Positions 4,251 through 57,766 of a stretch of DNA of 64,000 nucleotides are shown in pieces (the first letter of the stretch is position 1; every line of letters starts with the position of its first letter). This DNA is from Allacma fusca. Lineage: Eukaryota; Arthropoda; Collembola; Symphypleona; Sminthuridae. The notes beneath the pieces were generated by a model. It did no database searches. It had not been told where the DNA came from and saw nothing but the letters and a program-made list of their open reading frames with translations. Location of the stretch: contig OX359246.1 of the NCBI GenBank assembly GCA_947179485.1, positions 43,007,632 through 43,071,631 on the forward strand, written 5' to 3'. A program made the translations under genes and the position numbers.

Positions 4251-7200
4251 TCACAGGTTTTTACCATAATGGTCAATCAATTTCAGCATGTACACCATAT
4301 CCGCTAAAGTTGAAGCGGAATTATAAGTACTCAAAATCAAGCAAGCGGGTATATCTCCGGCTGGTTTGTAAGAAATGGTGAGTCGATTGCTGATAACCAC
4401 ATCATTCAGAATTTGACGTTGTACCTTACCACATATAAAACAACAGTTAGTATTAAGAAAAATAAAATGCTCAAGAAGCTAAATAGAAATGCATGGACGC
4501 TCACGGGTTGTAGTAGTTGTATAAAGTCTGGATCATTCCTCATTGTAGTGGCATTAGCCCGAAGTCTTTCTGGAACATAGTAAAAGTTGACAGTGGTGCA
4601 CTCTGGAGGAGTCTTGGGATGAACAAGAATAAACCGGTCGGAATTCATCTGTAGGTACTCATAGACTTGATCAATCAGTGTATAGCCAGCGTCAATGTGA
4701 GCACCAAGTCCTTGCAGTCCCTGTCAAAATATTTTTTATAAATATTTTTAAACCAAAGGATCTCATAATTCAAAGGAGTTTTCGATCAAACCTTTGCCTT
4801 CCACAGGAACCAGGTTTTGAAAACTTGTGAACGTCGATCTGGGAAAGGTTGGTAAAAGCCGGTGTCATACACAGAACTGTCATAAAGCTGTTTATTATTA
4901 AATTCCTGCTCGCTAATTGGTGGAGCCACTTTTCTCAAAATGCCTTTGTGTCTCGTAACGAAGAAACTTGCATCTTGGGCAGCTCCAAAAGATTTGTGGG
5001 GGTTAAAATTGAATGAGTCGGACCTGCAGTTATCGGGTTTGAGAATATTTATGGTGCATAGATATTATTACTGTGACTAAAAAAAAATTGTTTTACGGCT
5101 AATTCTTTATTATGTACATGACTTCTTCGACATGGTTTAGAATTTAATATCCACATACCTTTCAATTCCTGTAAACTGTCGTGCTTTTCTAATTGCATTT
5201 GAAGACAAAATACTAGAACCTCCATAAGCTCCATCCACGTGAAGCCACATTTTATTATCCCGGCAGACATCTGCAATTTCATTCAATGGATCAAAGGCTC
5301 CAAGGGTTGTAGTTCCAGCAGTGGCTACAACAAGAAAGGGTGTCTTATTTGCAGCTTTTGCTTCCGCAACCTTTTCTCTCAAATCTGCCACTGACATTTT
5401 CCCACTCTCGTCCTGAGCCACATACACTGCGTTTTCCTGACCAATACCTAATATGACAGGAACAGGATTTTGGAGTGTAACAATACATTTTCTGAATTTC
5501 ATTAATTCTCAAAGATACATATATCACACTATTTATCTAAAGAGTAAAAATTACCGCTGAAAAAGGCTCCTTTATTGGTGGAGTAATGTGCTGCTATGCT
5601 CAAAAATGCTACGAGAGTAGTATTTGCTTCGGAGTTACCACTTTCCTTTGCTTTAGTTTCTTTAGTTAAAAGTGCCAGCATCATTGCAACCTGATTGGCA
5701 GCTGAACCTCCTGGTAAAACTAGCCCGTCTCCTTGTTCAGGATATCCCACTTGCTTCCTCACTGCCTTAGCAAGTTCATCCTCCATTAAAGTAAATATTG
5801 GGTTATCCTCATACGTTAACATTGGAGAATTTACAGCAGCGATGATGTAGTCACCCATAATAGTATAAGGGTCCAATCTGAATTTAATTATTCAAATGAT
5901 TACAAAAGCCGAAACAAATTTTACTATCTACAAATGTATAATAATATTTAACTCACACCATATTAAATTGGTAATTGTCATAAGGATGTCCCAGGTGAAC
6001 GCTGTATTTAATAATTCTGTTAAATATCTCAAGCAAAGCAGCCTCATTTTCCTTCATGGTACCAGAAGGGCTACTTAGGGAGAAGTCAAATTTTTTCAGT
6101 AGGTCTTCGGGTGATTCAAAATGAGCAGGGGTTTCATTCTTCCTTGAGTTTTGAAAGTAAGTCCCCTTTTCAAGTACCGCCTCAAAAAAATCAGTGAAAA
6201 AGTTTTTGTGGAGTGATTCAATTGGAGCGGAGACAAAATCTGAGTAGGTTTGTGGAGCTTTGGGGATTTTGAGGGAGCTGGGCAATGGTGTAGCTCCTGC
6301 AGGTTTGGGTGTTGTTGTCCTTCTCCAGAATGGCCAAAAAAATCCTTATAAAGTAAATTTGTTTTACAATCGAACCCACAATTATTTAAGTTGCAAGTAA
6401 AGTAACGACAAAATAAAAACAAGCACTTTTTTCTGTCTGAGGTATCCATAACTTGGGTTGGCTGCTTCCTTCTTCCTCAATCAAATCTATCATGTAAATA
6501 ACGTCATCTCTTGTAATTGCAGAGTTGGCAAGGCTCATGACGAAAACCGGCGCCCTGGATTTAGAAGGGATGGTGTTTACTGAAATAGTCATTTTCCCCT
6601 TTTTTAGGAGATTTTCTCGTATGGTTTCAGTAATCTGCAAAACGATTTACTCATTTTAACAGGCCCCATGCTTGAATTCTTACTTTGGATATTTAATTAT
6701 TGAAACTTGTAATAGTCTTGTAGTTAACAAAATTGGTTTCATTACTTTCTTCTGCTTAATACAATCTTCTTGTGAAGTAGGGGCGGACCAAATATACGGA
6801 CACTGTTCTGACTTAAAGTAAAAGGCAACTTGGTTGCTTTCAAAGTTTTGCAAAATCAATTTAAATTTGTTTGGCCGGCGCTTAAGCTGTGAGACTGCAA
6901 AGTCTGTCATGGTATAGGTGTAGTCAACATGCCTTGCAAGTCTTTCCGTACCCTGAAATTAGTATAGAAAGTGTCCTGGCGCTGATATAAACGAACTTTA
7001 TCATTATAAGACATTTTATACATGCATTCAAGAATTATTATAAAATACATTGACAGAACCTCTGCTTTTGAATTACATTTAGCATTATGCACTATGCATA
7101 CCTTGGCTTTCCAGAGAAACCAGATTTTTATAATGTCTGGTCTTCTGGTGGTTTGCATGGTGTTATCTCCATTGTCCCATTTGCTGTTGTTGTATAAGGG

Positions 7201-9188
7201 GCTTGGGATGAAGAGGAGGTCGGAATTGAATGAGAAGGTTTTCTTCATTATTCTTTCCTCTTTTGTGACCAAAATTGTGGAAACAAATGGGGCTGAAAGA
7301 CCTTTATCGACACTCCAAAGGAAGGAATCTGATCTGAAATTCAGAATTTCTTTATGTGTACTGACACATGGTAAGATTTTATACATACCTCTTTTGAACT
7401 CATACGGGGCAAGGGCTAACAAAAGATAAATGGTCTCTCTTTTATACGAGATGTGTTGTGCGAATTCCAACTACAGTGAGCAAGGCCAATGTATGCTGGA
7501 GCAACAGCAGAATATTTTTGTGAACTTGCTTGTTTAAATAGCCAAACAAATGTGTTCTTCAATACAATTCATTAACAGCGATTTTCAAAATATTTGGGCA
7601 TAACAAAAACGGTACCTCTCAACTCCCTTCAGACGATTTTTGTAGTGTGGTGAAAGTATGGTGGCACCAGCCAGTTGTCCATCAACATGAAACCACATTT
7701 TCTCTCTTTTCGCAATGACAGCAAGGGACTCAAGATTATCGATTGCACCCAAAACCGGAGTACCTTAAGTTTTAAAAAATAAAACTATAATTTGATGTAT
7801 GTATTATCATCTATTATTATGTATCATGCTTTAAAATGAAGGAAGTTGAAAATAGCAAGAATCTGTATGTACATACATACCTACTATAGATTTGAAGATG
7901 CTCAAAATAAATAATATTTTTTTTGCGTACAGAAGTTCCATACACCCCGTAATATTTACCTGCTGTTCCTACGATCATTGTAGGTACATAATCTTGTTTC
8001 TTAGAATCAGATATGGCAGTGTTTAAAGCATTCAAATCCATACGGCCGTTTTCGTCAGTTTGAACTCTGGAACATCCCGTTAGACCCAAACCTGGCCATT
8101 TAGTAACAAAATATTAGTCAAAATTACTTTCTACTGAACTTTATGATTACAGAATAAAAATCCTGCGTCAGCGTACCTTCCCAGATGCAGTATTTTTCAT
8201 AAGCGAAGGAGGCATCTTCTGAGATGAAGATGATTGGCCGGGGTCCCTTCGGAGATCCAGCTTGGATAAAACCTTTTTGTTTGAAGTTTAGAAATTTCCT
8301 TTGTAGTGCCATTTGGATCACATAGCCATTGCCCATTCCAGCACCAGGGGTGATCATTCCATCGCCTTTCCCATCAGGGTAGTTAATTAGCTCTCTCACT
8401 TTTCTCTCAACTTCGTATTCCATTAGAGTGTACACTGGAGCGAGGAGGTACGTCAAAACTGGTCCTGACATGACTGTTCCCATCCAATCTCCAATGAGAC
8501 CATACGGATCGAGTCTGCGGGTTCAAAATTGGGTTTGTTTAATTTTATCGCCCTTTAACCAGGGGTCCGTCCCTCTTTGTATTTTTTTCATTCAATCACA
8601 CTTAAATAACTAATCTATACATCGTTGGCTAAATGTCAAATAGGATTATTTTCACTTCAAAAGATTTTATATACATATAACATAACTTTTTAAATGGGAT
8701 CTCCATTGAAATTGGTAGTTACTTTTTAAAATATAGCCAACGACATGTGCTTGCACCCGAAAAATTTATAATTGCTCTAACCCAGCCCCATGACGATCAA
8801 CTTTGAAAGGATGTGAGACATGAGGACTGTACTGGATAACTTTTTTCACAATTTCAATTAGTGCTGCTTCGTCCACTCTTTCCTCAGGTAAACTTAAATC
8901 AATGAGGCTTTTGATTTCCTCGGGGGTCCTGAATTTAAAAGGAGGCTGTGACCTCGAAGAATCGTTATTAAAGAAGACGCCCTCATCAAGCAGAATGTTA
9001 ATAATTTCCCGATACAGTTTGTCGTGTAGAGCAGGGACGGAGCTGGAGACGTAATATGGGTAGGTCTTAGGCGGTTCTGGAGGAATAAGGCCATTGTCAG
9101 TTAAATCTTCACCATTTTTTGATTCAAACCCATCGGTCAACCCCCATGTCAAAACGGAAAGACATGAGAACAGAAATCCTAATCTCAT
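4251..9188 (-). CDS. secreted double-domain group II PLP decarboxylase (GAD/CSAD-like), copy A
   Basis: Thirteen exons: 9188-8782, 8514-8177, 8091-7960, 7763-7616, 7333-7102, 6952-6746, 6634-6427, 6344-5957, 5877-5555, 5447-5159, 5023-4792, 4720-4505, 4424-4251. They total 3,294 nt in one frame. Residues 1-20 form a signal peptide. Exons 1-7 encode one decarboxylase domain and exons 8-13 a second, joined by a linker with a TTTPKP stretch. Domain 2 has the canonical PLP residues: His in AAHYSTNKG, TAGTT, Asp in HVDGAYGG, Lys in FNFNPHKSFGA, and the family-like C-terminus HYGKNL. Domain 1 keeps the Lys and Asp but has SVDK for NPHK and Phe for the PLP-stacking His. Matching exon sizes (232 nt for the Lys exon in both halves) indicate internal duplication. 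Substrate (Glu, Asp, cysteine sulfinate or other) is unknown. The exon 7/8 join is inferred from phase; two adjacent genes is the alternative. Confidence 0.82.
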
Positions 9189-12685: not shown

Positions 12686-15600
12686 TTATGTATGTATGTA
12701 TGTATTTTAGGGGTTCCCTCTCACCTAATTGGAGAGAGATACTGCTCAGGCCATCAGGTGGGCCCATTGCAAATTGCCCTGTACACTTCACTTTGGGCGG
12801 GTTACGAAGCGGCCAGTTGCAATTGAGTAATACAACAGGTCGCTCGCGTTCGCCTGTTTAAGAAGACTTAGGTCTAAAGTGCATGCCATAAGATAGATAT
12901 TTCTAATGATGCACAAGGCAGGACACGTCGCCAAGAAGTGAAAGGCGTCCTCATCCTCTATGCCACAATATGTGCACAGGGGGCAGGTTGCCTTCCCAAT
13001 TCTATGGAGATGTTTTTGAAATCTGCCATGACCAGAAATAACCTCCGTGATCCACTTGATGTGGACTCGTGAGAATTTGGTCACCGATTTGTTCCCATAT
13101 AGTGAAGTATTTATCATTGATCTGGGATGAGCACCAATTTTCAGGTTTTGCCATCTCTCAGTGTGCAAGGCACGCAGTTTGCTGCGTACGATATGTTTCA
13201 CCACTGAGGTAGCAATTGGAAGTTTAGTTGGAATCCTGGTTTCTAGGGATTCTTTAGAGTAAGCGGCTTTCGCAAGTTTATCTGCCTCCTCGTTGCCTTC
13301 AAAACCTTGATGACTTGGTATCCAATGGAGCCGAACAGTGTTATCCTTGGATAAACTGCTCAGCGCCATGTTACAATCAAGTACTAGTTTAAGTTTTAGT
13401 ACTATAAAAGATGAGGCCAATGTTGTCCAATGACAGATCTTTGGTCCACTCAGACGTTTCGCCAATAACAATTCCAATATCGTTATTTACAAGTTGTGAC
13501 GGGATGATGCTATCGCTAAGTCTCAGTAGGATAGTTTCCATCGTCACCCATAGATTCCACAGTCTAATATGACTGCGTTTAACATGTGTCATAGATTCGT
13601 CGAGCCAGAGGTTCCTGGCCCTTAGTCTGCATTGTTCGGACAGCTATTCCCTGTTGATGTAAGTCTAGCGGAATAATGCCTAAAATCGCTTCTAATGTCG
13701 CAGTTGGAGTGCTTTTACAGGCACCTGTGATACTGAGACAAGCTTGCCTTTGCACACTGTTTATCTTGGCAAAGGTGTATTTTGCATTATAACCAGGATG
13801 CCAGACGACAACTGCGTATTCCAGAATGGGGCGCACGATTGTCGTGTACATCCAGTTTGCAAGTTTGGGGTTAATACCCCATTTCTTTCCGACCAAGCGT
13901 TTGATAGTGAGTAATGATCAGCTAGCTTTATTCGCAATGGAGAGACAATGTCCTCTCCATGTGAGGTGGCTATCTAACATAACTCCTAGATATCTTATGC
14001 TTGGGAAGATGGCGATTTGATTACCATAGTAGGAAAGTGTACTTATCCTCATGCGTGTGTTCCTGGTAAAAATGACTGCGCCCGTTTTTTTCGGGTTTAG
14101 TTTGAGACCCGTGCGTGTGCACCATACATCGATGATGCCTAGACCCTTAAGAGTTCTATCCGCACATCTTCTGAAGTCTTTTCCTGTCTGAGCAAGGACT
14201 GCGTCATCCGCAAATCCATGTGATGAGAGAGATGGCATCCTGGTATGAAGCTGTTGGAGTAGCTCATCCATAACGAGGTTCCAGATTAGAGGAGACAAAA
14301 CACCGCCCTGTGGGGTTTCCCTTTCAACTCCTCTCTCGCTGTGAGAGCTTCTCAGTGTGGAGCAAGCTAATCTGGATTGCAGCATGTGATTTATCCATCG
14401 AAAAATTACAGTGTCATTTCCAGATCTGCTCAGGGCTGATTCCATCGCTGAAAATAACAAATTATTAAATGCTCCATCGATGTCCGCAAATATTGCTATA
14501 ACAATTTCCTTATTTTCCAGGGCTCTTTCCACGTAGCATACAAGTGCTGCCTCTGTGGAAGTTCCCCGTAAATACTCAAATTGTTTGTTAACCCTAAGAG
14601 CTTGTAGTTGATATGTTCTTATGTGACAATCAACTAGTATTTCGAGTGTTTTCAATAGAAACGAGGAAAGTGAGATTGGTCTCCAAGCAGTCGAACTTTC
14701 GTAACAGCCTTTTCCAGGTTTTGAAATGAATATCACTCTTGCTTTGCGCCATTCTAGTGGCACGTAACCTAGTGTCAAACAACCTTTGTAGATTGTGCAC
14801 AGGTGAGTACTGGGAACATCCAGACCCTTTAGTAGAACTATTGGGGAGATGTTGGCTGTACCAGCAGCTTTGAAGGGGCCACAGGTACTCAATGCCCACT
14901 TTATTTTGGATGGATTAACTATTTTGTCTAGCTACGTCACTTCCATTAGGTTATGATCCCAAGTTATGGAGTTTAACGAGGGACCACATGGAAAGTGGTG
15001 AGCTAGTAGTTCATCTAGAACCAGGTAATCATCCCTTGTGTGCATACCAATCGGGAGTTTCATGCGGCTAGGAGTTTTCCGATTCTCCGAACTTAATACG
15101 TTTTTTAGTCTAGCCGCTACTGGTAAACAGGTTATGCTCTCAAAGTCGTTTTGCCAAGACTTGCGTTTCTCGCTTCTTAAAACTTTTTTATATTTATTTC
15201 GGCATCTCTTATAGATCTCCCAGGCTGATGGATCACGCTCATTGGGGTTACCAACCAATCGGAGGAGACCACGAGATCTTTTACAGGGTGCAGACAATTC
15301 ATTGGTCCACCAAGGAACAGTTTTTTGCCTCCACGAAATTGTTTTTAGTGGACAGGCTTTGTCAAAGATGTTTGGATCGATGATGTTATCAACACAGCCT
15401 GATTCTCAAGTTTACCAACATTCAGAGGTGCCTCCATGTGTACACCATTTAGATCTTCAGATAAGCAATTGACGTATTTTTCCCAATCAGCCTTCCTTTT
15501 ATGACGAGTTTTTATTGGGTTTGGCTTCATGGCGGACACCAAACATCCAATGTACAAGTGGTCAGACATGGATTCAACATCCAGAACGCCCCACTGTCTA

Positions 15601-16240
15601 ATTAGACTATGTGCCCAGCTGTTTGTTATTGTAACATCTAAGACCTCCTGTCTATTAGCAACTACGAATGTGGGTATATTTCCCACATTGCAGGTCTGCA
15701 GGTGGTTTCTTAGTAAGAATTCAAGTAGCTGCTCGCCTCGTGAGTTTATATTGGAGCTACCACAAGCTGTGTGGTGAACATTTGCATCTGCACCCATAAC
15801 CAGCGGGATCTTTAGCTGATTACAGTATTCAACAAGATTTGTGATAGATCTGCTAGGAGTCGTTTGTGTGTCACCAGGGCAATAAGCTGATGCAAACACA
15901 ATGGTTCCGCTTCTCCATTCAGTGGAAATAGCCATCAAGTCTCTATCATTGAATTGAGAGAGAGGAGTAGCTATTATGTTTTTGGTTGTTACAATGCAAG
16001 CCCTATGGGCTTCGTTTATTGTATCAACAAATAAATTATCTCTTTTTCCAAGGCCTGAGATTTTATTTTTGACCAAATATGGTTCTTGAATGAGGAAAAT
16101 AAGACCACTTACCAGAGATTTATGCTCGGCGATTTTACCATGCTTGTATTTTGACAACCATTTAAATTAATCTGGTAAACTATTAATAAAAATTTGGAAA
16201 TCATGAATTTCGATAGGGCTAGCCATGTTTTAGCTAAAAT
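12686..16240 (-). mobile_element. defective non-LTR retrotransposon (RNase H-bearing, I/LOA/Jockey-superfamily type)
   Basis: Minus-strand ORF2 in pieces. The AP-like endonuclease is at 16157-15345 (VMGADANVHHTACGSSN, VESMSDHLYIGC). The thumb/linker is at about 15365-14935. The reverse transcriptase is at 14892-13579, with WRPISLSS, TPQGGVLSPLIWNLV and a FADD box (GFADDAVL) where many relatives have YADD. An RNase H ends in VRLHWIPSHQGFEGNEEADK, and the tail holds a Cys/His motif (CPLC..C....DAFHFLATC). Inactive: a frameshift near 15360, in-frame stops at 14932-14934 and 13918-13920, and a frameshift near 13390 where the RNase H N-terminal part is degraded. ORF1 is absent, so it is probably 5'-truncated. 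The 3' end carries a short TACA-type simple repeat at about 12689-12706, as usual for this class. Confidence 0.88.
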
Positions 16241-24456: not shown

Positions 24457-27400
24457 TCACAGGTTTTTACCATAATGGTCAATTATGTTAAACATGTAAA
24501 CCATATCCGCGAACGTCAAAGCGGTATTATAAGTACTCAAAATCAAGCAAGCGGGTATATCTCCGGCTGGTTTGTAGGAAATGGTGAGTCGATTGCTGCT
24601 AACAACATCTTTCAGAATTTGACGTTGTACCTTACCACATATAAAACAACAGTTAGTGTTAAGAAAAATGAAATGCTCAAGAAGATAAATTAAAATGCAT
24701 GGGAAACTTACAGGTTCTAGTAGTTGTATAAAGGCCGGGTCATTCCTCATTGTAGTGGCATTTGCCCGAAGTCTTTCTGGAACATAGTAAAAGTTGACAG
24801 TGGTGCACTCTGGAGGAGTCTTGGGATGAACAAGAATAAACCGGTCTGAATTCATCTGCAGGTACTCATAGACTTGATCAACTAGTGTATAACCAGCGTC
24901 AATGTGAGCACCAAGGCCTTGCAGACCCTGTCAAAATATTTTTGATAAATATTTTTAAAGCAAAGTATTTCAATTCAAAGGAGTTTTAGTTCAAACCTTG
25001 GCCTTCCACAGGAACCACATTTTGAAAACTTGTCCACGTCGGTCTGGGAAAGGTTGATAAACGGCTGTGTCATACACAGAACTGTCATACAGCTGTTTAT
25101 TATTAAATTCCTGCTCGCTGATTGGTGGAGCCACTTTTCTCAAAATGCCTTTGTGTCTCGTAACGAAGATACTTGCATCTTGGACAGCTCCAAAAGCTTT
25201 GTGGGTGTTAAAATTGAATGAGTCGGTCCTGTAGTTATGGGATTTGAGAATTATCATGGCGCACAGATAGTACTGTTTATTCTTTATTACCTGAGCTTCT
25301 TTAACATGTTATGAAATTTAATACCATCATACCTTTCAATTCCTGTAAACTGTCGTGCTTTTCTAGTTGCATTTGAAGAAAAAATACTGGCGCCTCCATA
25401 AGATCCATCCACATGAAGCCACATTTTATTATCCCGGCAGACATCTGCAATTTCATTTATAGGATCAAAGGCTCCAAGGGTTGTAGTTCCAGCAGTGGCT
25501 ACAACAAGAAAGGGTGTCTTATTTGCAGCTTTTGCTTCCGCAACCTTTTTTCTCAAATCTGACACTGACATTTTCCCACTCTCGTCTTGAGCCACATACA
25601 CTGCTCTTTCCAGACCAATACCTAATGTGGCAGCAACAGAATTTTTTAATGTAAGTATATATTTTATACGTTTTATTAATTCTCAAAGATATATCACATT
25701 ATTTATGGAAACAATAAAAATTACCACTAAAAAAGGCTCCTTTGTTGGTGGAGTAATGTGCTGCTATGCTCAAAAATGCTACAAGAGTAGTATTTGTTTC
25801 GGAGTAACCACTTTCCTTTGCTTTAGTTTCTTTAGTTAAATATGCTAGCATCACTGCATACTCATTGGAAGCTGATCCTCCTGGTAAAACTAGCCCGTCA
25901 CCTTGTTCAGGATATCCCAGTTGCTTCCTCACTGCCTTAGCAAGTTCATCCTCCATTAAAGTAAATATTGGGTTATCCTCATACGTTAACATTGGAGAAT
26001 TTACAGCAGCGATGATGTAGTCGCCCATAATAGTATAGGGGTCCAAACTGAATTTGATTATTCAAATTGTAACGAAAACCGAAACAAATAGCATTAAAAA
26101 CATAATATATTTAACTTACGCCATAACAAATTGGTTATTGTCATAAGGGTGTCCCAGATGTACACTGTATTTAATAATGCTGCTAAATATCTCCAGCAAT
26201 GCAGCCTCATTTTCCTTCATTGTACCAGAAGGACTACTTAGAGAGAAGTCAAATTTTTTCAGTAGGTCTTCTGGTGTTTCAAAATGGGCAGGGGTTTCAT
26301 TCTTCCTAGAGTTTTGAAAGTAAGTCCCATTTTCAAGTACCGCATCAAAAAAATCAGTAAAGAATGTTTTGTGGAGTGATTCAATTGGAGCGGAGACAAA
26401 GTCTGAGTAGGTTTGTGGAGCTTTTGGGATTTTGTTGGATGGTGTAGCTGCTGCAGGTTTGGGTGTTGTTGGCCTCCAGATTGGCCAAAAAATTCCTGAT
26501 TTTACTTTTAAGTAAAAAATTTTAGGATCAAACCTTAAAATTTTTAAAACCTTCATTGCAATAATTATATATATATGCAAGTAATGTAACGACAAATAAA
26601 AACAAGCACTTGTTTCTTTCTCAGGCATCAATAACTTGGCTTGGCTGTTTCCTTCTTTCTCAATCAAATCTATCATGTAAATAACGTCATCTCTTGTAAT
26701 TGCAGAATTTGCAAGGCTCATGACGAAAACCGGCACCCTGGATTTAGAAGGGATGGTGTTTACTGAAATAGTCATTTTCCCCTGTTTTAGGAGATTTTCT
26801 CGAATGGATTCAGTAATCTGCAAAACGGTTTACTCATTTTATTAGGCCCCATGCTTAAGTTTTCACTTTGAATTTTAAGTTATTCATTGAGACTTGTAAT
26901 AGTGTTGTAGTTAACCAAATTTGTTTCATTACTTTCTTCTGCTTAATACAGTCTTCTTGGGAATTAGGAAAGTACCAAATATATGGACATTGTTGTGGCT
27001 TAAAATAAAAGGCAACTAGGTTGCTTTCAAAGTTTTGCAAAATCAATTTAAAGTTTGGCCGGCCCTTAAGCTGTGAGACTGCAAAGTCTTTCATGGCATA
27101 GGTGTAATCAACATGTCTTCCAAGTCTTTCCTGACCCTGAAATTAGTATATATGTAAGTGTCCTGGCACTAATATAAACGGACTTTGTGATTATAAGCCA
27201 TTTTATACACACAATCAATAATTATTATAAAATACATTAACAGAACAGTAACTATAATTATGTACCTTGGCTTTCCACATAAACCAGAGTTTTATTATGT
27301 CTGGTCTTCTAGAGGTTTGCATGGTGTTATCACCATTGTCCCATTTGCTATTGTTGTATAAGGGGCTTGGGACGAAGAGGAGATCAGAATTGAATGAAAA

Positions 27401-29315
27401 GGACTTCCTAATTATATTTTCCTCTCTTGTGACCAAAATTGTGGTAACAAATGGGGCTGAAAGACCTTTATCGGCACTCCAAAGGAAGGAATCTGATCTG
27501 AAATTCAGGATTTCTTTATGTATATCTACTAACACTCGGTAAGATACATGTAACCTCTTTTGAGCTCATACGGGACAAGTATTAACAAAAGATAAATGGT
27601 CTCTGCTTTATACGAGATTTGTTTTGCGAATTCCGACTACACTGAGCAAGGTCAATGTATGCTGGAGCAGAATATTTATGTTCACTTGCTTGTTTGAATA
27701 GCAAAAGAACTGCACTCATCAATACAATACATTAACAGTGATTTTCATAATAATATGTCGGTAAAGTAACAGTACCTCTCAACTCCCTTCAGTCTATTTT
27801 TATGGAGTGGAGAAAGTATGGCGGAACCAGCTAGCTGTCCATCAACATGAAACCACATTTTCTCTCTTTCCGCAATGACAGCAAGGCTCTCAAGAAAGTC
27901 GATTGCTCCCAAAACAGGAGTGCCTTCATTTTTAAGAATAAAACTATAATTTTATATATTATCATGTATTATTATGTATTATGGTATAAAAATGTAGGAA
28001 GTTGGAAGTAGCAAGGTCCGACCTGTTTGTACATATGTACATGTTATGGTTTTGAAGATGCACAAAATAAATAAACTTTTTATACGTACACAAGTTCCAT
28101 GCTCCTCGTAATATTTTTACCTGCTGTTCCTACGACCATTGTGGGTACATAACCTCGTCTCTTAGAATCAGATATGGCAGTGTTTAAAGCACCCAAATGC
28201 ATACGGCCGTTTGCGTCAGTTTGTACTCTGGAACATCCCGTTAGACCCAAACCTGGCCATTTATTAGTAGCAAAAATTTTACTCAAAATTACTTTCTACT
28301 TATGAGGCTTATGATTACATTTCCACGAAGAAAAATCCCACGTCGGCGTACCTTCCCAGATGCAGTATTTTTCATAAGCGAAGGAGGCATCTTCTGAGAT
28401 GAAGATGATTGGTCGGCGTCCTTTCGGGGTTCCAGCTTGGATAAAACCTTTTTGTTTAAAGTTTGGAAATCTCCTTTGTAGTGCCATTTGGATCACATAG
28501 CCATTGCCCATTCCAGCACCAGGGGTGATCATTCCGTCGCCTGTCCCATTAGGGTAGTTTATTAGCTCTCACTTTTCTCTCAACTTCATATTCCATTAGA
28601 GTGTACACTGGAGCGTAGAGGTATGTCGCAAGTGTTCCTGACATGACCGTTCCCATCCAATCTCCAATGAGGCCATAGGGATCGAGTCTACGGGTTCAAA
28701 ATTGGGTTTCTTCAATTTTAACCGCCCTTAACATGGTGGCCCATCTTTGTGTTGTAATTTTTTCATTCAACCACAATTAAATAACTAATCTATACATTGT
28801 TAGCTAAATTTTTAAAAGTAACGTTTTCAGTTCAATACATATGCTTTTTAAATGGGATCTCCAATGAAAATGGTAATTACTTTTTAAAACTTAGCCAACG
28901 ACATGCGCTCTTACCCTGCCCCATGACGATCAACTTTGAAAGGATGTGAGACATGAGGACTGTACTGGATTACCTTTTTTACAATGTCAATTAGTGTTGT
29001 TTCGTCCACTCTTTTGTCAGGTAAACTTAAATCAATGATGCTTTTGATTTCCTCGGGGGTCCTGAATTTAAAAGGAGGCTGTGACCTCGAAGAATCGTTA
29101 TTAAAGAAGACGCCCTCATCAAGCAGAATGTTAATAATTTCCCGATACAGTTTGTCGTGTAGAACAGAGACAGAGCTGGAAACGTAATATGGGAAGTTTT
29201 TAGGAGCTTCTGGGGGAATAATACCATTGTCGATCAAGTCTTTACCATATTTTGATTCGAAACCATGGGTAAATTTCAGAACGGCAAGACACGAGAACAA
29301 AACTCGGAACCTCAT
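24457..29315 (-). pseudogene. double-domain PLP decarboxylase, copy B, one frameshift
   Basis: Same 13 exons as copy A: 29315-28915, 28687-28352, 28252-28121, 27923-27776, 27497-27266, 27136-26933, 26817-26610, 26495-26120, 26047-25725, 25621-25333, 25228-24997, 24927-24712, 24630-24457. All splice sites are intact. Exon 2 lacks 2 bp of a CT run (near 28566-28571 on the + strand), giving a stop at 28551-28549, so as read the product would end within domain 1. Every other exon keeps its frame. Domain 2 has NTHK for NPHK but keeps the PLP Lys, the Asp in HVDGSYGGAS, and His in AAHYSTNKG; domain 1 has SADK. The signal peptide is retained (MRFRVLFSCLAVLKFTHG). A recent pseudogene, or a sequencing error in a dinucleotide run, is equally possible from sequence alone. 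Confidence 0.82.
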
Positions 29316-42020: not shown

Positions 42021-44083
42021 CTATGTGTCATCATCCATTGAATTCAAACCAATTTCCGAAATTTGTAGCTGCAGCATAAATATGAAGTAAGTTAGGATGG
42101 TTCCCATCGTCTTGAATAAAATTTGAAAATTAATTATAATTACTAATCATTACACTGCAAGGTATAATAATTATTGTAAAATATATCTTAATACTATTAC
42201 AAGCATCTAATTATTTTCTCCTTACAGACAGAATCGTAGAATGATTAACACTGAAATAATTTCTAGCCGTGAATCTCCACTTCCATCGCAAGAACCACTC
42301 ACCCCATAGACGAAGTTGCCTAGATCTTGCCTAAATATATAATTATAACATTGAGAAACAATCAGGGTTGGAAAAAAACCGGATTTTATCAATAAAGGCC
42401 AAGCCAGTGGTAAGAAATGGTAACAACCGGTTTTTATTGGACAGTCGATTTATTTGGATAGTATTAATTATGGCCATTTTATACCAACCTATACAAAAGC
42501 TCCAGGCCGGTTAGAACCGGATTTTAACCAATAATGACCACGCCATTTCTTGCCACTTGGCAACCCTTTGTTAATGCATGCATAATATTAGCCAAGCCAG
42601 TGGCAAGAAATGGTAGAAACCGGTTTTTATTGGACAGTGGATTTATTTGGATAGTATTAATTATGACCATTTTATACCAGCCTATAAAACAGGTCCAAGC
42701 CGGTTAGAACCGGATTTTAACCAATAATGACCAGGCCATTTCTTGCCACTTGCCAACCCTGGAAACAATGCAATGAAATTGGATATTTTGCAGGACATGA
42801 AATTTTTTAAAGTACATGCCTCCCTCTCAAGGTTTAACATTCCAAGCGCATCCGAAACTCGTTCCTTACATTTCTCAACCTGGAAGAGGGAAAAGTCATA
42901 AAATATCAATCCCAGTGAAATTCTCAGATTCATAGCCAAAACTTTATTCACATGTGCTTTCAATCCCCATCATAAAAGGAACAGTAGGTATAAATAACAG
43001 TAATTATGTACCTACATTTAAAATATTTGCATGTCTATGTAATAGAATCCTGATTGAACTCACCTTTGAAGCCATGAATTCACCAAACATGGCCAGCACG
43101 AGAATCTGATAGACTCCAAATGCCAGCCAACCGACATCTTCAAAAGTTCCAAAATTGGTGAAAACAAGCAGGCACAAAAAACAAATGATATCTACGACAT
43201 TACCAAATAACGCAATTAAAATGTTCCAGCCGGCCAGAACAGAATAAATATTGAATGCCCTCTGTAGTTGCTCAAAGATCTCAGGGAACTCCGACAGATT
43301 CGTTGAGATTTCCAAGTCGTCCTTAACCACTGTTTGTACCAGGATTTGTCGTTGTAAGGAATTCTTCTGCTGTTGTGGCACCCGCCCGAATTGTAATTTC
43401 TCCAGTGATGACACGATGATGCTAGAAAGGTCATCCTGAATACGGGTTAATACACATCCAGCTAATAAAACCAAAGTGAATGCAGAGAACACTGGTAGGA
43501 TAACCAGTTGGTCAACTAGAATGAATAAAGCTCTCGAGAGTACATAATTTTCGGAAATTGATCTCATACTATCAAGTGCCTTGCGCCGAGGGATTAATAT
43601 TTTAAATAATTCCAAGCAACCTGATATTATGAAAATGGAAACGCCCATCAAATAGACAAAAATAATCCATCGGAACTGTATTTTGCTTTTGTATACAACC
43701 CCTTCGGATCTTTTGATCCCATTAATTTTCCGACTGAGCGAGTCCAATATCTGAATCAATTCCAGTGTGGACTGGCAGTAAACAACAGCGATGATTCGAT
43801 GAAATAAAGAGTTCCAGAATGCGAGTGTGCCACAATAATGGGTCAATTTCTCGGCCAATGTTGCTCCACTCGTGACTAGAGTCAAATTTTTGAGGCAGTA
43901 GTCCGCAAGTACTATAGCCGGGTAGACGAAAAATATAACGCTTAGTAATGTCCAAGTGTTAAACCGTGAGTATTTTATTTTGTGAATTTTACTGAATGGA
44001 TTTTTTACAGGAAATAAGCCTATGATTGCAGATCCTGCTATAAAACTGCGAGTGAATATTTCAATTTTGCTAGTTTTGTTCAT
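42021..44083 (-). CDS. gustatory receptor (7tm_7), Gr-a
   Basis: Ligand-gated cation channel-type chemoreceptor of the arthropod gustatory family, plasma membrane. Exons 44083-43064, 42879-42820, 42330-42226, 42110-42021; 424 residues. Several hydrophobic segments are visible, for example TWTLLSVIFFVYPAIVLADY and FSAFTLVLLAGCVL. It has the cluster's N-terminal IGLFPVKNPF and a last-exon LTYFIFMLQL that fits the family TYhhhhhQF signature. Exon 3 reads RLWGEWFLRWKWRFTARNYF. This is the most divergent of the four paralogs (AAG|GTGAGT first donor). Its second intron uses a GC donor (GAG then GCATGT) and houses the hAT MITE at 42363-42761; its third intron is GT-AG. Ligand unknown. Confidence 0.88.
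42363..42761. mobile_element. hAT-type MITE, CCGG-word element, in an intron of Gr-a
   Basis: Ends CAGGGTTGG...CCAACCCTG inside a perfect 8-bp duplication GAAACAAT (42355-42362, 42762-42769). Internally it is two tandem halves of about 190 bp, each running from GCCAGTGG(T/C)AAGAAATGG to its inverse CCATTTCTTGCCACTTG. AACCGG/CCGGTT is repeated through both. No coding. Confidence 0.9.
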
Positions 44084-45418
44084 ATTGTATCGGGCTGGAT
44101 TAGTTACCAGATGTCACCAGGAGAAGAGTAATGCCAATGAGAAGGAAGTACTTTATAAAATTATATTTCGTGTGTAAGATTGAGTATAAAGAATTTGCCC
44201 ACTTGTTAGGAATCAGATCAACGGGAAGTAGAGTAGTCCATGTTGAAAACTTATTATAAACTACAAGCAAGAAAAATTTCCAATAGAAATAAGATTTTAT
44301 CGAGACTCTGCAATACGAATGGTAATTTTTGTCTGTGTAGTATTGAAATGTAAACAATAATTATAAAATTTGACTCCCAGCTGTCCTCACAACATCACAT
44401 GTATGTCGGTGTTTGCAGGAAATTGTATTTTAAGTATCTACAGAATAAATACTGGCCCAGTTAAAATTTGTTTTGTCAATAAGAATCATTCACTGGTTTG
44501 GTGTCAATTGTATGCAATATTTATTATTTACTACTGATTTATAAGCACATGTAATCCTACAATTTAAGCACGTGGTTTATTAAAACCTGAGTTAGCCCAT
44601 TTATGGTCCGATGATAAATCAATACGTCTGTACGTGTGAACGCAGTGAGTGTACTTGCATAAATTTACCTGTAGATACTTCTGTAAAAATTACTTACATC
44701 CAACATGCATTAAAATTATAAAGCGTACACCTTGGTTTTGTTTATCAAGCATATATTTACTTTGGAGTATCTACAGGTATTATGTACACATATTTACAGG
44801 ACCCACCTAAACCATCCGGACATTACAAATTCACGGGCTGAAAAACTAGTCAAAATATGTACTTCCATTTCCAGGATATGTTTCGTTCAAGGGTCAAAAA
44901 TTCCGATGGTATTTCCAGTAACCTCAAGAAATTATTCCTTGAAATTTGTAGACAATTTATTACTAATTCTGTGGGACTCAAATGTGTGAGATTTCTGATT
45001 GATTTATTTTAGTTCCAGCTTAGGAGTTATTCATAGAATTGTATTCATAGTTTTCAATGAAAAACGTATTAAAATTAACCAACCGCAGTCATAACCCCTG
45101 TTTCTGGCTGTCTGCTAACTTTCTCCTACTTGATGGATCCAAATAAAATCAGTTTCAAATTACAGGACTTTTTCGAAAAAGAATTAGTAACACATACCTA
45201 GTTTCTCTTTTAATAGTATCCGTAGAATAATCTACTTAGTCTGCTACAATTATTTAACATGAATGTAATTATTATTTATTTACATACACACGTATCAATA
45301 TTTTCCCACTGGAATATTAATTAAAGTACAATACACAAAGTACAGATAACAGGAGACCGGGACGGAAGATAAATACAATATTCCTACTCTGCAGTTTTGT
45401 CAAGATCCTGTTCAATAT
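44084..45418. other. intergenic between Gr-a and Gr-b
   Basis: The part from about 44930 to 45170 is homologous to 53950-54180, the 3' flank of Gr-c, so the Gr-b/Gr-c duplication carried 3' flank with it. Nothing else recognised. Confidence 0.55.
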
Positions 45419-46983
45419 TCATTTTCTAGATTTCGCAGTAATTTCGGACATTCCGAGTTGAAGCATGAAGATGAAATACGTCAGTATAGTTCCAATTACC
45501 TAAAGATGACACGAATTTCTAAAACGTTAGATATTAATTTTGTTTAGTCTAATACGTAATTATCTCAATGTAAGTAGTTTCTACTTGCCGCTGGAACAGT
45601 CGAATTATTAACATTAAAAAAATGATTAGCTGTAAACTTCCAATTCCATTGCAAGTACCACTCGCCCCAAATACGCAATTGCACCCAGCTTCCCTGCGTT
45701 CATATTTCCAGGCAATGTCAATGTGTATAAGTATACTGGGTGATGAATGAGAATTATTATTGTTGTCAATCATATTTTCGAGAGTAAATATAGATACAGG
45801 CAAAATGTATGTGACAGATGTACTATTACTAACCTCGTTTATAATGCTCAGCTTTCCAAGGGCATTAGAGATTGCCTCCTTGTGTTCCTCAAACTGGTGA
45901 AGCCATAAAAAATATACTCAGAAAATTTAGAAATGCAGGTGTACATAAAAAATATAATTATAGCACCTGTGTCTCCATGAATTGTCCAAATGTTGCCAGC
46001 ATAAAAACTTGGTAGATTCCAAATGCAAACCAGAGCACATACACAAAGGATTTCAAGTCCTTGATTATGAAATTACTGATGAATGAGACGACATCGATTA
46101 TGGCGCCCACCAAAACTACAAACACATACCACCCACCCACATTTGAATAAATAGCAAAAGCCCGTTTAATTTGCTCCAAAAGCTCGGGAAACTCCAGTAT
46201 CTTATTCCTGCTCAAATAATCCTGAATCGGTTTTTCTTGTCTAGGTGTTGATTTCCCCCTTTCTACCAATGTTATATTCTGGTTGGAGCGACCAATATAA
46301 GCTTTCTCTATTGACAAGACAAGGATCCTTGTAATTTTACTTTGAATTCGAATCAAAGCACATCCCGAGAGTAAGACAAAAGTCAGGGCGAAGAGTCCTG
46401 GTGTAATTACAAGATGATTAACAACCACGAATATAATATGAGCAATAATATTAATTCCCGTTAAAGATTTGAATCTGCCTATTGCTTCAGGTGGAAGATA
46501 AGCAATGTTCAAAACATCCGCTCCGTTAACAATAATCATAAACACAAATCCAATTATGTAGTTTACAATAACCCAGCGAAACTTGTGCTTTCTATCAATT
46601 ATGCCTGTCATTTTGAAAGTCTCAAGTCTCTGACTGATGGAATTCAATATCTGGATCATATGAAGTGTCTGCTGACAATACACTAATGCTATTACTCGAT
46701 GTAGTAATGTGCTACAGTAGGAGGACATGAAGCAGAATCGGGATATTTTCGTCGATAGTGTGGTTTGATTGTCAAAAACAATTTCTTGTATATGATAGTC
46801 CGTTAGGACAGTGACTGAGTAGATGAATATTATCACACTTGTGAGGACGTAGAGGCTGAAATGTGAATATTTAATGTCGTTCAAATTTTTGAAGGGATTT
46901 TTCACAGGAAATAGACCCCATATTGCAGACACTGAGATCAGAATACGAATTGAATTAATCTCACTGCCAATTTGCCTTCTCAT
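45419..46983 (-). CDS. gustatory receptor (7tm_7), Gr-b
   Basis: Exons 46983-45967, 45893-45834, 45693-45589, 45499-45419; 420 residues, same plan and exon sizes as its neighbours. Seen: SISxSAIWGLFPVKNPF-type N-terminus, membrane segments such as LVITPGLFALTFVLLSGCAL, a short second exon FEEHKEAISNALGKLSIINE, and a third exon with QLRIWGEWYLQWNWKF. The last exon is VIGTILTYFIFMLQL, fitting the TYhhhhhQF signature. The exon 3 donor is GC (GCG then GCAAGT). Closest to Gr-c, with which it shares flank sequence. Confidence 0.92.
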
Positions 46984-48195
46984 AATGAACGATTATTTAA
47001 ATTTTCTTGTACCGCTTAAGTTTTGTTTTTAGGTCTTCTTGCTTAAAATTATTTTTTAAGAACAGATTTTAAAAAATCGGCGATTTTGTTTTTATACTGA
47101 AAATTTCAACGCAGGCAAATGTTTTTATTCGATAATACGGAAAATACTTCCATACACGTAGTTAGACGCGATGGATTATGTACCAGAGTTTTTTCGAGTT
47201 TTAACTTTCGGGCCCGGACAGAATTATTTTCTAGACGGATTTATTATGATACATTTATTTATTCAGAATTTTAGGATATTTTATTACAGACTTTATTGGC
47301 GTAATGCAGCAGAACAAGGAAGTATTGTATGGACAGTTGGTGGCTGGGTAAATTAGGACAGCGACAGAACCCATTTGACTATACATATGTACATACATCC
47401 GTGTTTGTTTTGTCTACTTTGTGAAGAGCTTGTTAAAACTGCATAATATTTTGCTAGCAGTGACACGTGTTCTGTGTAAACAAATAAAATAAACAATAAA
47501 ATAAAATAATAGATAAATGCTTCAACCCTCCGTCGAAGGATTTTCGATTTTTGAGTACAACAGAGATTTTGCGTTTACTACATTTCCAAAGATAAATACA
47601 AACATAGATTATATTATAAATTGTATGTTGATGTATTTTGATTGCTACGAAAGACTAATGTTCTAGTTTAATTATTGTTTTCCGACTATTAGTCGGAAAT
47701 TGTAGAAGGGATGAGTACGTAATTGTTTGAGGACTTGTAAATATGTTTACTGGACAATAACCAGGCTGTAATTGAATTAAAACTCTGAATTCATTGGCCA
47801 GAATATCATGCACTATATGGTGCATCCGTAGGAGAAAATTATTTATTGCAGCTTAGTGTACGAGCGTACGGGTTGTGGTACTAGCAGTCTACGTGAATGT
47901 GTGATTTTTGGTATGCTTGTGGGCAGATGGTTACAATAACAATACATAATAGCAATGGCTGGTAAGTCGGGTTTTCTCACTGCGAAGGCTAAGCGAATTA
48001 GTATTTAAGTATGTCAAAAAATAATTAAAGAATTACAACGTCAGATCGATTTATATCATGGATAAAAGAGTAAAAAATATCAAAAGCAGAGGCGCTCAGG
48101 TATTGACAATAGCAACATCAAGCACAGTAACAACGTGCTAAAAACTGTTAAGATATAATTGGACTTATACCTTAAAGGAGTGTAGCTCTAATAGT
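46984..48195. other. upstream of Gr-b, nothing recognised
   Basis: AT-rich. A short perfect palindrome (TTCCGACTATTAGTCGGAA) lies near 47680. No open frame with a family. Confidence 0.45.
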
Positions 48196-48659
48196 TAAAT
48201 AATAAAGTGGGAGAATATTAAGAGAGTATTGCCAATTATAGAGATATTTATTCAGTGTACAAAAAGAATGAGAGGAAGAGTGAGAGCTAGAGAAGGAGAG
48301 TGGAGTGGAGTGGAGTCCAGCAGAGTAACAGTAAAGTTACCAAGGGTTAGACCCGAGCCAGACTCTACGATTGTGGGAAGGAGCAGGGTTTATATACTGT
48401 AGGGTTGGCTGTAAAACAGGAATTATCCAGTTCAAACTGGTTTTGTTTCCGTTACATTTACATTGTTACTTTTGTTCAGAGTTAATACCAATCAGACTAC
48501 AGAGTCCAAGCTTCTTAGATGAAGCATCCTTTTTTAACCAATAGTTGAGCATGATACAATAGACAATAAGATTCTCTTTTCTTTTACATTTGTAAGTAAT
48601 ATTGCTACTCTTTACATACAATGTAATATATTTTCTTAAAGTACAAGTATGGCTTAACA
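48196..48659. mobile_element. 5'-truncated LTR of the TGTTAAG family
   Basis: From 48226 to the terminal CTTAACA at 48659 it is 434 bp and reads identical to 50259-50692. The first ~130-190 bp present in the other copies are missing. No target duplication can be checked on the left. Confidence 0.8.
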
Positions 48660-50068
48660 TTCATTGGATTATAGGAAACGATGACCTCATCGTTGGAAAA
48701 ATATAAAATGTGGAATTAAGTACACTGTAAAAATTTTGAGTCCGAATTAAAATTTCAATAACACAATAAAATTCTTTAGAATGATGAATAAAATATTTGA
48801 ACACAGAATACATGACTTTTCTCATAAAAATGACACTTTTTACGTATATTTCACCTTACATAAAGATTTTTCGTCCTCGAAAAAGTAAACAATTTCGGAA
48901 GTTCAAGGCACACTGGAAATGTTAACATTGTCGTGGAAATGTTTGTCGCAAAAATTGTTGGAAAATGGAGACACTGCATTTCGTAGAGTAGACTTCAAAA
49001 TAAAATGTAGATTAACCGTGACATTCAAAAATAATAATAAGGCAAACCGGTTGAAGCGAAGAATTCATTGGGTGGTTTCTCTGTACTGGAAACTTTTCTG
49101 TAGTAACGTCTTAAATGGAAGAGGCATGAGGCGTGTCTTGTCGCTATTTTGAAAACCAGGGCGTGCATGGGGCGCGTTGAGTGAAGTCCGTAAATTGTCG
49201 TTGAGCAGGTCAATATTGGGCTGGTGACTTGGCTAGGGTCATCATTGGAGTTTCGTCTGCAATGGGCAGAAGCTTTGCGATGGGAAATCACGGGTAGAGT
49301 GATCAATTCTCTCAGTAATTTCAAACGGTAATCCGGGTGTCGGCAAAATTGTTGGTTGACTGGTCTGGGCATTTTGAGAATGTCTTGAAAATTTTGAGCA
49401 GGGCCTCCGGCAGAGGCTGACGCCACAAAAATATTTTGTATAAGTAGTTTGGATAGTAGGAAATAAGGAAGAAAGATAGGAACAAATTGTCGGTCGAAAT
49501 AAAGATTTAATTAAATGAAAAACTGTGTGACCAAAAAATTTTAGATTTTGTAGGAGCCTATTTCAGAATATGATTCCTAGTAAATTTTTACATATACTGT
49601 AAATTTTTTATCGATCTAGCTCTACTCCTTGGGGTAAAATGAAATTTTTTAGGGAAATTTTTGACAGGGCCTCCGGCAGAGGCTGACGCCACGAAAAATT
49701 ATTATAGTAGAAGATCGTATAGTGGAATAACAAAGGAAAAGTGTAGGTACATAACAATTTATTCGTTCGTTAAAAGTACGGGGGAAAAAATTTTTTGGAA
49801 AACATTTACCAAAAAATTTTCGAATTTTCAGGAGCTGATTTTAAAATTAAATTACCCGTAAATTTTTATCTAATCTATGAAATTTTCAGAGATCTAGCTT
49901 TATTTGGGTAAAATGAGAATTGTGTAAAAAATTTGGGCAGAGCCTCCGGCAGAGGCTTACGCCACGAAGATATTTGTGACTGAATTTTGTTTTAAAAATA
50001 GGGAAAAAAAGGAAGATTTTTGATACGAACCTGGTGTGAGACTTTGTCGTCCCCGCACCGTGCACCAT
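48660..50068. other. sequence between two LTR copies, with a 3-copy tandem repeat
   Basis: About 1.4 kb with no recognisable gag or pol, so if this is the body of an LTR element it is a non-autonomous one. From 49397 it contains three diverged units of 266-273 bp, each opening with a CCTCCGGCAGAGGCTxACGCCAC block (49401, 49667, 49940). The third is cut by the LTR. The long minus-strand frame at 49426-49025 has no known family. Confidence 0.55.
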
Positions 50069-50692
50069 ATTAAGTTATAATTGTAATTGGGATTACTTAA
50101 CTTGTAAAAATGAGCAGGTTCGTGTATGTAACGAAAAGAGTAAAATAAAGTATAATAAATAGGGGGAAATGTAGCAGGTAGAGAATACACTCCCTTGCTG
50201 TGAGGGATTTCGGGAGTTTAGTCTCTTGTAATATAATGTAAAGTAAAATATTAACTGCGTATTGCCAATTATAGAGATATTTATTCAGTGTACAAAAAGA
50301 ATGAGAGGAAGAGTGAGAGCTAGAGAAGGAGAGTGGAGTGGAGTGGAGTCCAGCAGAGTAACAGTAAAGTTACCAAGGGTTAGACCCGAGCCAGACTCTA
50401 CGATTGTGGGAAGGAGCAGGGTTTATATACTGTAGGGTTGGCTGTAAAACAGGAATTATCCAGTTCAAACTGGTTTTGTTTCCGTTACATTTACATTGTT
50501 ACTTTTGTTCAGAGTTAATACCAATCAGACTACAGAGTCCAAGCTTCTTAGATGAAGCATCCTTTTTTAACCAATAGTTGAGCATGATACAATAGACAAT
50601 AAGATTCTCTTTTCTTTTACATTTGTAAGTAATATTGCTACTCTTTACATACAATGTAATATATTTTCTTAAAGTACAAGTATGGCTTAACA
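50069..50692. mobile_element. LTR of the TGTTAAG family, near full length
   Basis: Homologous to the solo LTR at 23361-24019 over its length and identical to 48226-48659 over the 3' 434 bp. Ends CTTAACA. The first bases read TATTAAG instead of TGTTAAG, so the 5' terminus is altered. Confidence 0.8.
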
Positions 50693-52344
50693 AAACCAAG
50701 TGACCCAGGACCAGGATTATAATGGCACATTCCTATTTTTACACTACGAGCATTAGTCATTCCAAACACCCAAGTGGCATGACTTCAAATTAGCATAACT
50801 TTTAAACTATTCGAGTAAGCTCACCGAATTTACATTCTAATTGCATCTACTCATTACCGGCTACAGGTTGGTCGCGTAAAAACACAAAGATAGTACATTG
50901 GTTCAAATGTTATAAGCATAAGATGTAAAAATTACCTATTTACGGTCCTTCCTCAAATTAGTACATGATGGTAACTGAAGAAGTAACTGAACGTACAAAC
51001 TCAAATATGCATATGGTTAGTCAGTAGTCAATTTAATGTACGCTTAAACACTTTAAATGCCTTAAAATTAGTGTATAACTTCTTGGTACACTCGTCTTAA
51101 CATTTCTGAATATTTTTATTGGTGCCCGAAAGTATGAGTAGGTGACTGCAAATAATTTACCCCTCCCCAATATAGCCCGCATTTCAATTTCCGTTGAATT
51201 TTTGCCCGTGTGGTGGAGTCCGATTCTGGGAGTTAATAATAAATCATTTACTATAATATGACATACCAAAAGATTTGTTGTACGCCCATAGTCACTGTAT
51301 TTATTCATCTACTTATTGTTAGTTAAGGAATCAAATATAGTTTCCCAAAGCACAAATTCTGGTCATGACCGATGTAAAAACTCGAGAGCAAAATTGTTGA
51401 ATTCAGCTTGAGGAGTGACTTTAATGAAACATATACATATGTTGTAATAGGGCCAATAGTGGTTGATGAAGCGATTTTGAAAAATGCGGAAGCCGTTTCT
51501 CTAAATCCGGAGAAATTATGTGGTTTTGGGAACTTGAGTCGTTTCTTGACTATCAGCATCAGCATAGAAAACTACTGCAAAAACTGAAAACTTCCAAAAC
51601 TTTTAAAGAAACGGCCTTTTGGGGATTTTTCGTTGATGATACGAGACCTCTAATTGTAAGTGCAGTTGTATTCCTATGACCAGTTTTAAAATTGGGCCAG
51701 TAATTTTGGATGGTCTTTTTCAGGATCTTCAAAAAAACCCATTCAGGAGGAATTATTATCCTTTACTTATTTATACTCAAGAAATTCCACTACCGTATAC
51801 GGTAGATTTTCCATTATAAAAATCTCAAAGAACCAGAAAAACAAATTCTTGATTTCGGATCAGGTCACGTAAGAAATCTCGGAGAATTTAAAGACGTTAA
51901 AAGTGATAAAGTGAGTTTATTCCATCATTAATAACCGTTTTGTTTATATTTGCTTTAACACTGATTATATGTTTCCTTGCAAGTGAAAATGGATATGTTG
52001 CCCTGGAGCATTATATTGTGGAGAATTTTAAAACTTACAATCCATGAAGCTAAAAATTCTCGTTGAAGAGGCATAACGGTCTAAGTGTTGTACAAAAGCA
52101 TGCGCGCGTAGACCATTTTGCGACGAAATTCTTTAACCATCTGGCTCACAAAGCGTGATTGTCCTTCAGTCCTTCATCACTGATGGATGAATAATTGCAA
52201 TGTAGTCAATACTGAAGTTTTCAGAATATTTTGCAGGTGAATAATTTATTTCCGCTGTTTCAATAAAGTTGACATCTGATTTGGTTACAATCCTTGAACA
52301 TACATACAAACGTCTGGACTAGCTGACACAGAATTATGAGCAAG
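50693..52344. other. spacer, one hairpin block
   Basis: No recognised gene. Contains the hairpin module at 52061-52129 described separately. Confidence 0.4.
52061..52129. repeat. hairpin module with CATGCGCGCG loop
   Basis: Left arm CGTTGAAGAGGCATAACGGT and right arm with AGACCATTTTGCGACG are partly complementary around a loop containing GTACAAAAGCATGCGCGCGT. The same module, better preserved, is at 62694-62768. A decayed inverse is at 18198-18260. Confidence 0.65.
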
Positions 52345-52352
52345 CACACCAT

Positions 52353-53153: not shown

Positions 53154-53161
53154 CACACCAT

Positions 53162-54425: not shown

Positions 54426-54682
54426 CATAATTCTTTACCTTATATACTCCTTACCTATTTTCACCTTCGACACTGTCCGTCGAATATTTTATTCACGTCG
54501 GCTATCTTTACATAACAAGAACTCTCGTAGTGACTGTTATATAATTATCACTCATTAATGTTTCCCCTGTAAAACACTAATTAAAGTATAATACAAGAAC
54601 AAATGCCATGGCGAACGGAAAAAAATACTCCTACATAATATATGTACATACAGATTTCTCAAAGTCCCATTCAATACTGTAA

Positions 54683-57758: not shown

Positions 57759-57766
57759 CTTATGTG

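Follow-up and report, generated by a model that had tools for sequence, protein, structure and literature searches.

The closest structures in PDB to the protein described here are those of animal enzymes (GAD2, CSAD, GAD1 and GADL1, with GAD2 and CSAD the best matches). The report on GADL1 places both active sites at the dimer interface, where a mobile loop of the apposing monomer covers the site, and describes the tyrosine of this loop as thought to be important for catalysis (PMC5947694). The gene we investigated encodes two consecutive domains of this decarboxylase family in a single chain. It lies in a window of 64,000 nucleotides (the whole stretch of DNA that was analysed) from the springtail Allacma fusca (contig OX359246.1, positions 43,007,632 to 43,071,631 of the forward strand). 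We call this gene copy A, a second such gene in the window copy B, and the two domains half 1 and half 2; loci elsewhere in the genome carry L numbers. The reading we prefer, to which we assign a probability of about 0.6, is that a tandem duplication followed by fusion gave rise to a single-chain, two-domain protein in which half 1 would be a non-catalytic partner and half 2 would bind pyridoxal 5'-phosphate (PLP) with altered or lost chemistry, the products of copies A and B being secreted.

Copy A consists of 13 exons (9188-4251, reverse strand; Table 1) separated by 12 GT-AG introns. Its coding sequence of 3,294 nt, stop included, specifies 1,097 residues in a single frame, which confirms the exon count, the phases and the length given in the first-pass annotation of this DNA. 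The annotation had also pointed out that the exon sum is divisible by three; the sum is correct, but it is no independent proof, since divisibility is a consequence of which splice sites are chosen. The PF00282 profile matches two stretches of the whole protein (E = 4.1e-120), and half 1 (residues 45-544) and half 2 (residues 590-1097) each match it separately (E = 2.8e-54 and 2.5e-65, respectively). Two PF00282 stretches are also found in the L066 protein. The protein thus has the two full decarboxylase domains that had been described, and a signal-like start is present in half 1 alone. Half 2 is 34-35% identical to GAD65 and CSAD, and half 1 is 29-31% identical to them.

The earlier claim that the two group II decarboxylase domains belong to one protein receives strong support from the family of related genes across the genome. 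The search covered an assembly of 393 Mb in 91 contigs and scored the best candidates, so that the number of loci is a lower bound. At least six loci contain half 1 followed by half 2: copies A and B, L065, L066, L067, and L068. L065-L068 each carry, within one exon of 593 nt, the last part of half 1, a linker of 41 residues, and the first part of half 2, with neither an intron nor a stop between them; the linker is 41 residues long, by count, in spliced copy B and 45 residues long in copy A. These distant paralogs are the decisive evidence, and with them the fusion is well supported by sequence comparison. The single-exon junction in L065-L068 also indicates that the junction intron of copies A and B is a later or variable feature, and that the fusion is older than the family. 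Among the matches listed in the genome search there were no lone half genes, the five weaker places included. L070-L073 are GAD/CSAD-like genes with a single domain, and the weakly similar L074-L077 read like aromatic or histidine decarboxylases.

At the junction within the window, splice scores alone are indecisive. The copy A donor at 6426 (AAA/GTGCTT) has a U1 pairing energy of -2.7 kcal/mol, the weakest of the 12 donors of copy A, and its counterpart in copy B, at -2.5 kcal/mol, is the weakest of the 12 donors of that copy. The remaining 22 donors of the two copies range from -3.2 to -8.9 kcal/mol, and 127 exonic decoy GTs have a mean of -2.3 kcal/mol. Several alternative GT-AG pairs at the copy A junction also preserve the frame. 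Because the donor score is near that of chance GTs, the junction intron by itself proves little. The first-pass annotation had joined the halves through this splice; the halves are indeed fused, but the case for the fusion comes from the four distant paralogs and not from this donor. When copies A and B are compared, the stretch between exons 7 and 8 appears intron-like, being 74% identical between the copies with indels that break the frame, and the only gaps in the linker exon are of 3 nt and 9 nt. The same junction had been claimed for copy B. The counterpart donor is present there; however, splicing is unnecessary, as the junction of copy B is open without it. The single open frame spans 711 nt to a stop at 26118, and the half 1 frame crosses a stretch of 114 nt, which in intron-like sequence would be free of stops with a probability of about 1.4%.

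The near-chance score of the copy A donor would also fit two separate single-domain genes, 80 bp apart, whose link is an annotation error. The same can be said of the stop that unspliced copy A meets about 40 nt beyond the junction donor, and of a candidate first exon of half 2's own, at 7941-7881, that combines a good donor with a stretch of hydrophobic residues. This candidate emerged from a screen of 74 ATG..GT candidates for a separate half 2 start upstream of 6345 in copy A, and it is not conserved in copy B. Moreover, the junction lies within one exon in the four paralogs, and the copy B frame is open across it. In exon 8 of copy A there is no in-frame ATG for half 2 upstream of 6057, although the codons ahead of the ATG at 6057 are under selection (nine synonymous changes in 41.7 sites versus five nonsynonymous changes in 150.3 sites, p = 0.0005). 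We therefore consider two separate genes extremely improbable.

Both halves of the fused protein are under strong purifying selection. Between copies A and B, with copy B read through its frameshift, the ratio of nonsynonymous to synonymous divergence (dN/dS) is 0.38 for half 1 (p = 1e-6) and 0.26 for half 2 (p = 2e-11). In the three pairs formed by L065, L066, and L067 (L068 was excluded from the distant-paralog comparison), the ratio lies between 0.09 and 0.14 for half 1 and between 0.12 and 0.18 for half 2, with dS in the halves ranging from 0.24 to 0.85. To judge from these low ratios, neither half seems dispensable. For the linker alone, the same three pairs give ratios of 0.22, 0.36, and 1.02, and between A and B the final 60 nt of half 1 have accumulated eight nonsynonymous and no synonymous changes; the linker is therefore loosely constrained.

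The active-site residues differ between the halves. We number positions after GAD65, with the Schiff-base Lys taken to be Lys396. As a reference we used prokaryotic relatives, for which 54 loci had a matching open reading frame and the 51 with frames of at least 380 aa were retained. His282, Asp364, His395, and Lys396 are present in all 51 and Tyr425 in 49, and the Arg558 position is occupied by R in 42 and by K in five, with a gap in four. The single-domain genes L070 and L072, included as controls, retain all seven of the residues His282, Asp364, Asn393, His395, Lys396, Tyr425, and Arg558. Half 1 has kept Asp364 and Lys396 in all six copies; in the same six copies His282 is replaced by S or D, Asn393 by S, His395 by D, Ala366 by Q or H, the loop Tyr425 by L or V, and Arg558 by V. 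In half 2, His282, Asp364, Asn393, His395, and Lys396 are retained in each of the five complete copies, and in each of them Tyr425 is replaced by Q and Arg558 by I or V. The pyridine Asp is thus present in 12 of 12 halves, and the Schiff-base Lys in 11 of 12, half 2 of L068 having no coverage at that position. The first-pass annotation had described a GAD/CSAD-like domain followed by a second full domain. Both are indeed PF00282 domains, but half 1 is degenerate and the loop Tyr and the Arg are gone from both halves, so that the protein is not a plain doubled GAD or CSAD.

A covalent pseudo-dimer, as the first-pass annotation had proposed, is the best reading of this pattern and a plausible one. 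The two halves would fold on each other as the subunits of dimeric GAD or CSAD do. Half 1 would act as a built-in, non-catalytic dimer partner that has retained the Lys and the Asp while most other cofactor contacts were lost, and half 2 would hold PLP as an internal aldimine. Since both halves are without the loop Tyr, no arrangement of the halves can supply it, whichever of them gives the loop. Because the loop Tyr and the Arg are absent from half 2 and from its partner, half 2 would be expected not to perform the standard decarboxylation of glutamate, aspartate, or cysteine sulfinate; it may instead carry out altered PLP chemistry, or it may bind PLP or a ligand. Altered chemistry is conceivable by analogy with DOPA decarboxylase, for which a change of the loop Tyr to Phe is described as leading to decarboxylation-dependent oxidative deamination (PMC7497351). 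Overall, the PLP-decarboxylase fold has probably been put to a new use in this fused family.

The oxidative deaminase that results from the Tyr-to-Phe change in DOPA decarboxylase (as described in PMC7497351) also lends itself to an alternative explanation, in which half 2 retains enzyme activity but with a changed reaction, such as the oxygen-dependent formation of aldehydes by loop-Tyr variants of the aromatic decarboxylases, and pairs with the half 2 of another chain, half 1 being a mere tail. The cofactor residues of half 2, intact in all five complete copies, agree with this explanation. However, the Gln found here differs from Phe and the Arg was lost too, and half 1 is as constrained as half 2, which is unlike a passive tail. 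We consider this alternative unlikely.

The products of copies A and B are likely secreted, as judged from their N-termini. Each opens with hydrophobic residues, after which comes a conserved T-x-G/FES site, which, applying the signal cleavage rule, we take to be the cleavage site. The N-terminal region has been conserved between the two copies at the protein level (dS 0.80, dN 0.15, Fisher p = 0.0002). The annotation had described the protein as secreted; for A and B this is supported by the conserved signal-peptide-like N-terminus, and support for secretion is limited to these two copies, as the first exons of L065-L068 are not settled. The halves of copy A contain four and three cysteines, whereas the GAD65 fragment has eight and the CSAD fragment 12.

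Several points weigh against the pseudo-dimer with a dead half 1 and an exported, PLP-binding half 2. Half 2 could pair with half 2 of another chain. The single-domain L071 has also lost several of the residues listed above, so that the loss is not tied to fusion. The roles of the residues, with the exception of the Lys and the loop Tyr, are presumed, including the binding of the substrate carboxylate by Arg558, and the C-terminal alignment near Arg558 is made at about 30% identity. A putative signal peptide was identified in A and B only, L067 having a hydrophobic stretch in frame upstream. L065-L067 have 6-10 cysteines per half and are not cysteine-poor; a low cysteine content is therefore no trait of the family. 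Finally, not every copy is intact: half 1 of copy B carries a frameshift, and L068 is broken in half 2.

Some of the same observations bear on the possibility that the fold is reused throughout by an extracellular pseudoenzyme that binds no PLP in either half and has a binding, storage or structural function. The absence of the Tyr and the Arg from both halves, the putative signal peptide in A and B, and the few cysteines of copy A are what one would expect in this case; the low cysteine content, however, is absent from L065-L067, and the retention of His282, Asp364, Asn393, His395, and Lys396 in half 2 of all five complete copies is hard to explain without PLP. A protein that dispenses with the cofactor altogether is, in our judgment, quite unlikely. 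A bolder version of the pseudo-dimer reading is that these genes represent an undescribed family of extracellular single-chain GAD/CSAD-like pseudo-heterodimers, in which the PLP site of the live half is completed and shielded by its dead partner, and which, having no acidic decarboxylation, would be altered PLP enzymes or binders of vitamin B6 or another ligand outside arthropod cells. We offer this version tentatively, as a possibility with the odds somewhat against it.

The simplest history suggested by the sequences is a tandem duplication of a gene like those of CSAD or aspartate decarboxylase (ADC), followed by fusion and then by the spread of the double gene. In the phylogeny, which included five of the 51 prokaryotic sequences and the incomplete half 2 of L068, the six first halves form one clade and the six second halves another (100/100 for each). 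The separation of the halves into these two clades indicates that the fusion predates the duplications. The two clades join at 97/95 relative to human GAD65, CSAD, and three single-domain relatives from the same genome. Both clades split copies A and B from L065-L068, and within L065-L068 a resolved branching order is obtained only with the first halves. The tree program warned of long branches, and we considered an artificial grouping of the halves through long-branch attraction. In quick trees from which either half was removed (these left out L018, L020, L021, both copy B halves, L033, L037, and L054), the other half still joins GAD65 and CSAD (93 and 92). With six copies of each, the halves group at 97/95, although the warning persists for that tree; we rejected this explanation. 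Support for a common origin that is independent of the tree comes from shared intron positions: all five introns in half 2 of copy A match, in column and phase, five of the six introns in half 1, and the single-domain CSAD-like gene L070 (contig C10) has five of six intron sites in common with half 1 of copy A.

Horizontal transfer was also considered as a source of the gene. It is unlikely, since animal enzymes give the best PDB matches and L070, a gene of the same genome, has introns in common with copy A. In the GTDB genomes the 54 related bacterial and archaeal loci reach 39% identity in the best segment, and they were used as an outgroup only. A search of IMG/VR with a query of 57 aa returned 32 stretches that match the pattern, none of which is a relative.

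Further observations concern the individual copies. The frameshift in copy B reflects either a recent move towards a pseudogene or a mistake in the assembly. The exons of A and B are 87-95% identical, with a dS of about 0.17 in the halves, whereas the 5' flank and the start of the coding sequence (9300-9065 and 29430-29190) are only 70-74% identical, with a dS of 0.80; this contrast suggests gene conversion of the gene body. At L068 (G000:C1:53037500-53066000) the matching last exons, L069, which seem to belong to L068, are found at a distance of about 17 kb, beyond a stretch that reads as retroelement-like. L071 (G000:C5:11590000-11594500) is a single-exon, open GAD-like gene in which Lys396 is replaced by Tyr, Asp364 by Asn, His282 by Gln, and Arg558 by Glu; it is another dead GAD, separate from the fused family, and perhaps a retrocopy.

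The remainder of the window contains other genes. Exons of an AAA ATPase at 583-1602 on the forward strand presumably encode the proteasome subunit Rpt5/PSMC3. Remains of a retroelement, by its look a non-LTR (long terminal repeat) element, extend over 12791-16166, with a reverse transcriptase domain (PF00078) at 13921-14931. Repeated genes for related membrane proteins occupy 43007-60472 on the reverse strand; of two that were checked, the one at 55212-56258 matches chemosensory receptors (7tm_7), in keeping with an arthropod genome, and the one at 43007-44113 matches nothing.

Table 1. Features of the fused decarboxylase-like genes in the window (positions are those of the window)
Feature	Position	Strand	Content
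Copy A exon 1	8782..9188	-	Putative signal peptide (MRLGFLFSCLSVLTWGLTDG) and N-terminal part of half 1
Copy A exon 2	8177..8514	-	Half 1; Ser in place of the PLP-stacking His
Copy A exon 3	7960..8091	-	Half 1
Copy A exon 4	7616..7763	-	Half 1; Asp of HVD retained
Copy A exon 5	7102..7333	-	Half 1; NPHK changed to SVDK, loop Tyr gone
Copy A exon 6	6746..6952	-	Half 1
Copy A exon 7	6427..6634	-	Last part of half 1 and first part of the linker; Val in place of the substrate Arg
Copy A junction intron	6345..6426	-	82 nt, weak donor; intron-like in comparison with copy B
Copy A exon 8	5957..6344	-	Linker and N-terminal part of half 2
Copy A exon 9	5555..5877	-	Half 2; PLP-stacking His retained
Copy A exon 10	5159..5447	-	Half 2
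Copy A exon 11	4792..5023	-	Half 2; NPHK retained, loop Tyr changed to Gln
Copy A exon 12	4505..4720	-	Half 2
Copy A exon 13	4251..4424	-	C-terminus of half 2 and stop; substrate Arg changed to Ile
Copy B	24457..29315	-	13-exon layout as in copy A, 20 kb away
Copy B open junction frame	26118..26829	-	Last half 1 exon into first half 2 exon, no interruption
Copy B 2-nt deletion	28567..28575	-	GA run in exon 2; frameshift in half 1

With GAD, CSAD, and GADL1 of animals the fused protein has in common the PF00282 fold family and, through L070, intron positions, whereas it differs from them in having two domains per chain, a putative signal peptide in A and B, and neither the loop Tyr nor the substrate Arg. 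We found no report of a tandem PF00282 protein in one open-access full-text library, in a search that was only partly aimed at tandem or double domains and does not prove that none has been published. As a principle this is not new, since fused halves with one dead site are known from other PLP families. The P-protein of glycine decarboxylase contains two fused fold-type-I domains, one of them without cofactor, but it belongs to a different family and is an active mitochondrial enzyme. A fusion in Photobacterium (L020) joins a PF00202 domain to a following PF00282 domain; it is bacterial and its partner domain is an aminotransferase, unlike the doubled decarboxylase found here. In the Allacma fusca family the dimer partner seems to have become part of the same chain. 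This would have freed one half to lose its site while the other retains the cofactor, and the family offers a natural test of what each half contributes and of what a PLP site does without the Tyr and the Arg. The cystathionine beta-synthases (CBS) of Caenorhabditis elegans have a different PLP fold type and function in intracellular sulfur metabolism. Nevertheless, CBS-1 and CBS-2 are described as likewise carrying tandem PLP catalytic regions in one chain, with the C-terminal catalytic region of CBS-2 being nearer to the human enzyme (PMC4133348, PMC7708620).

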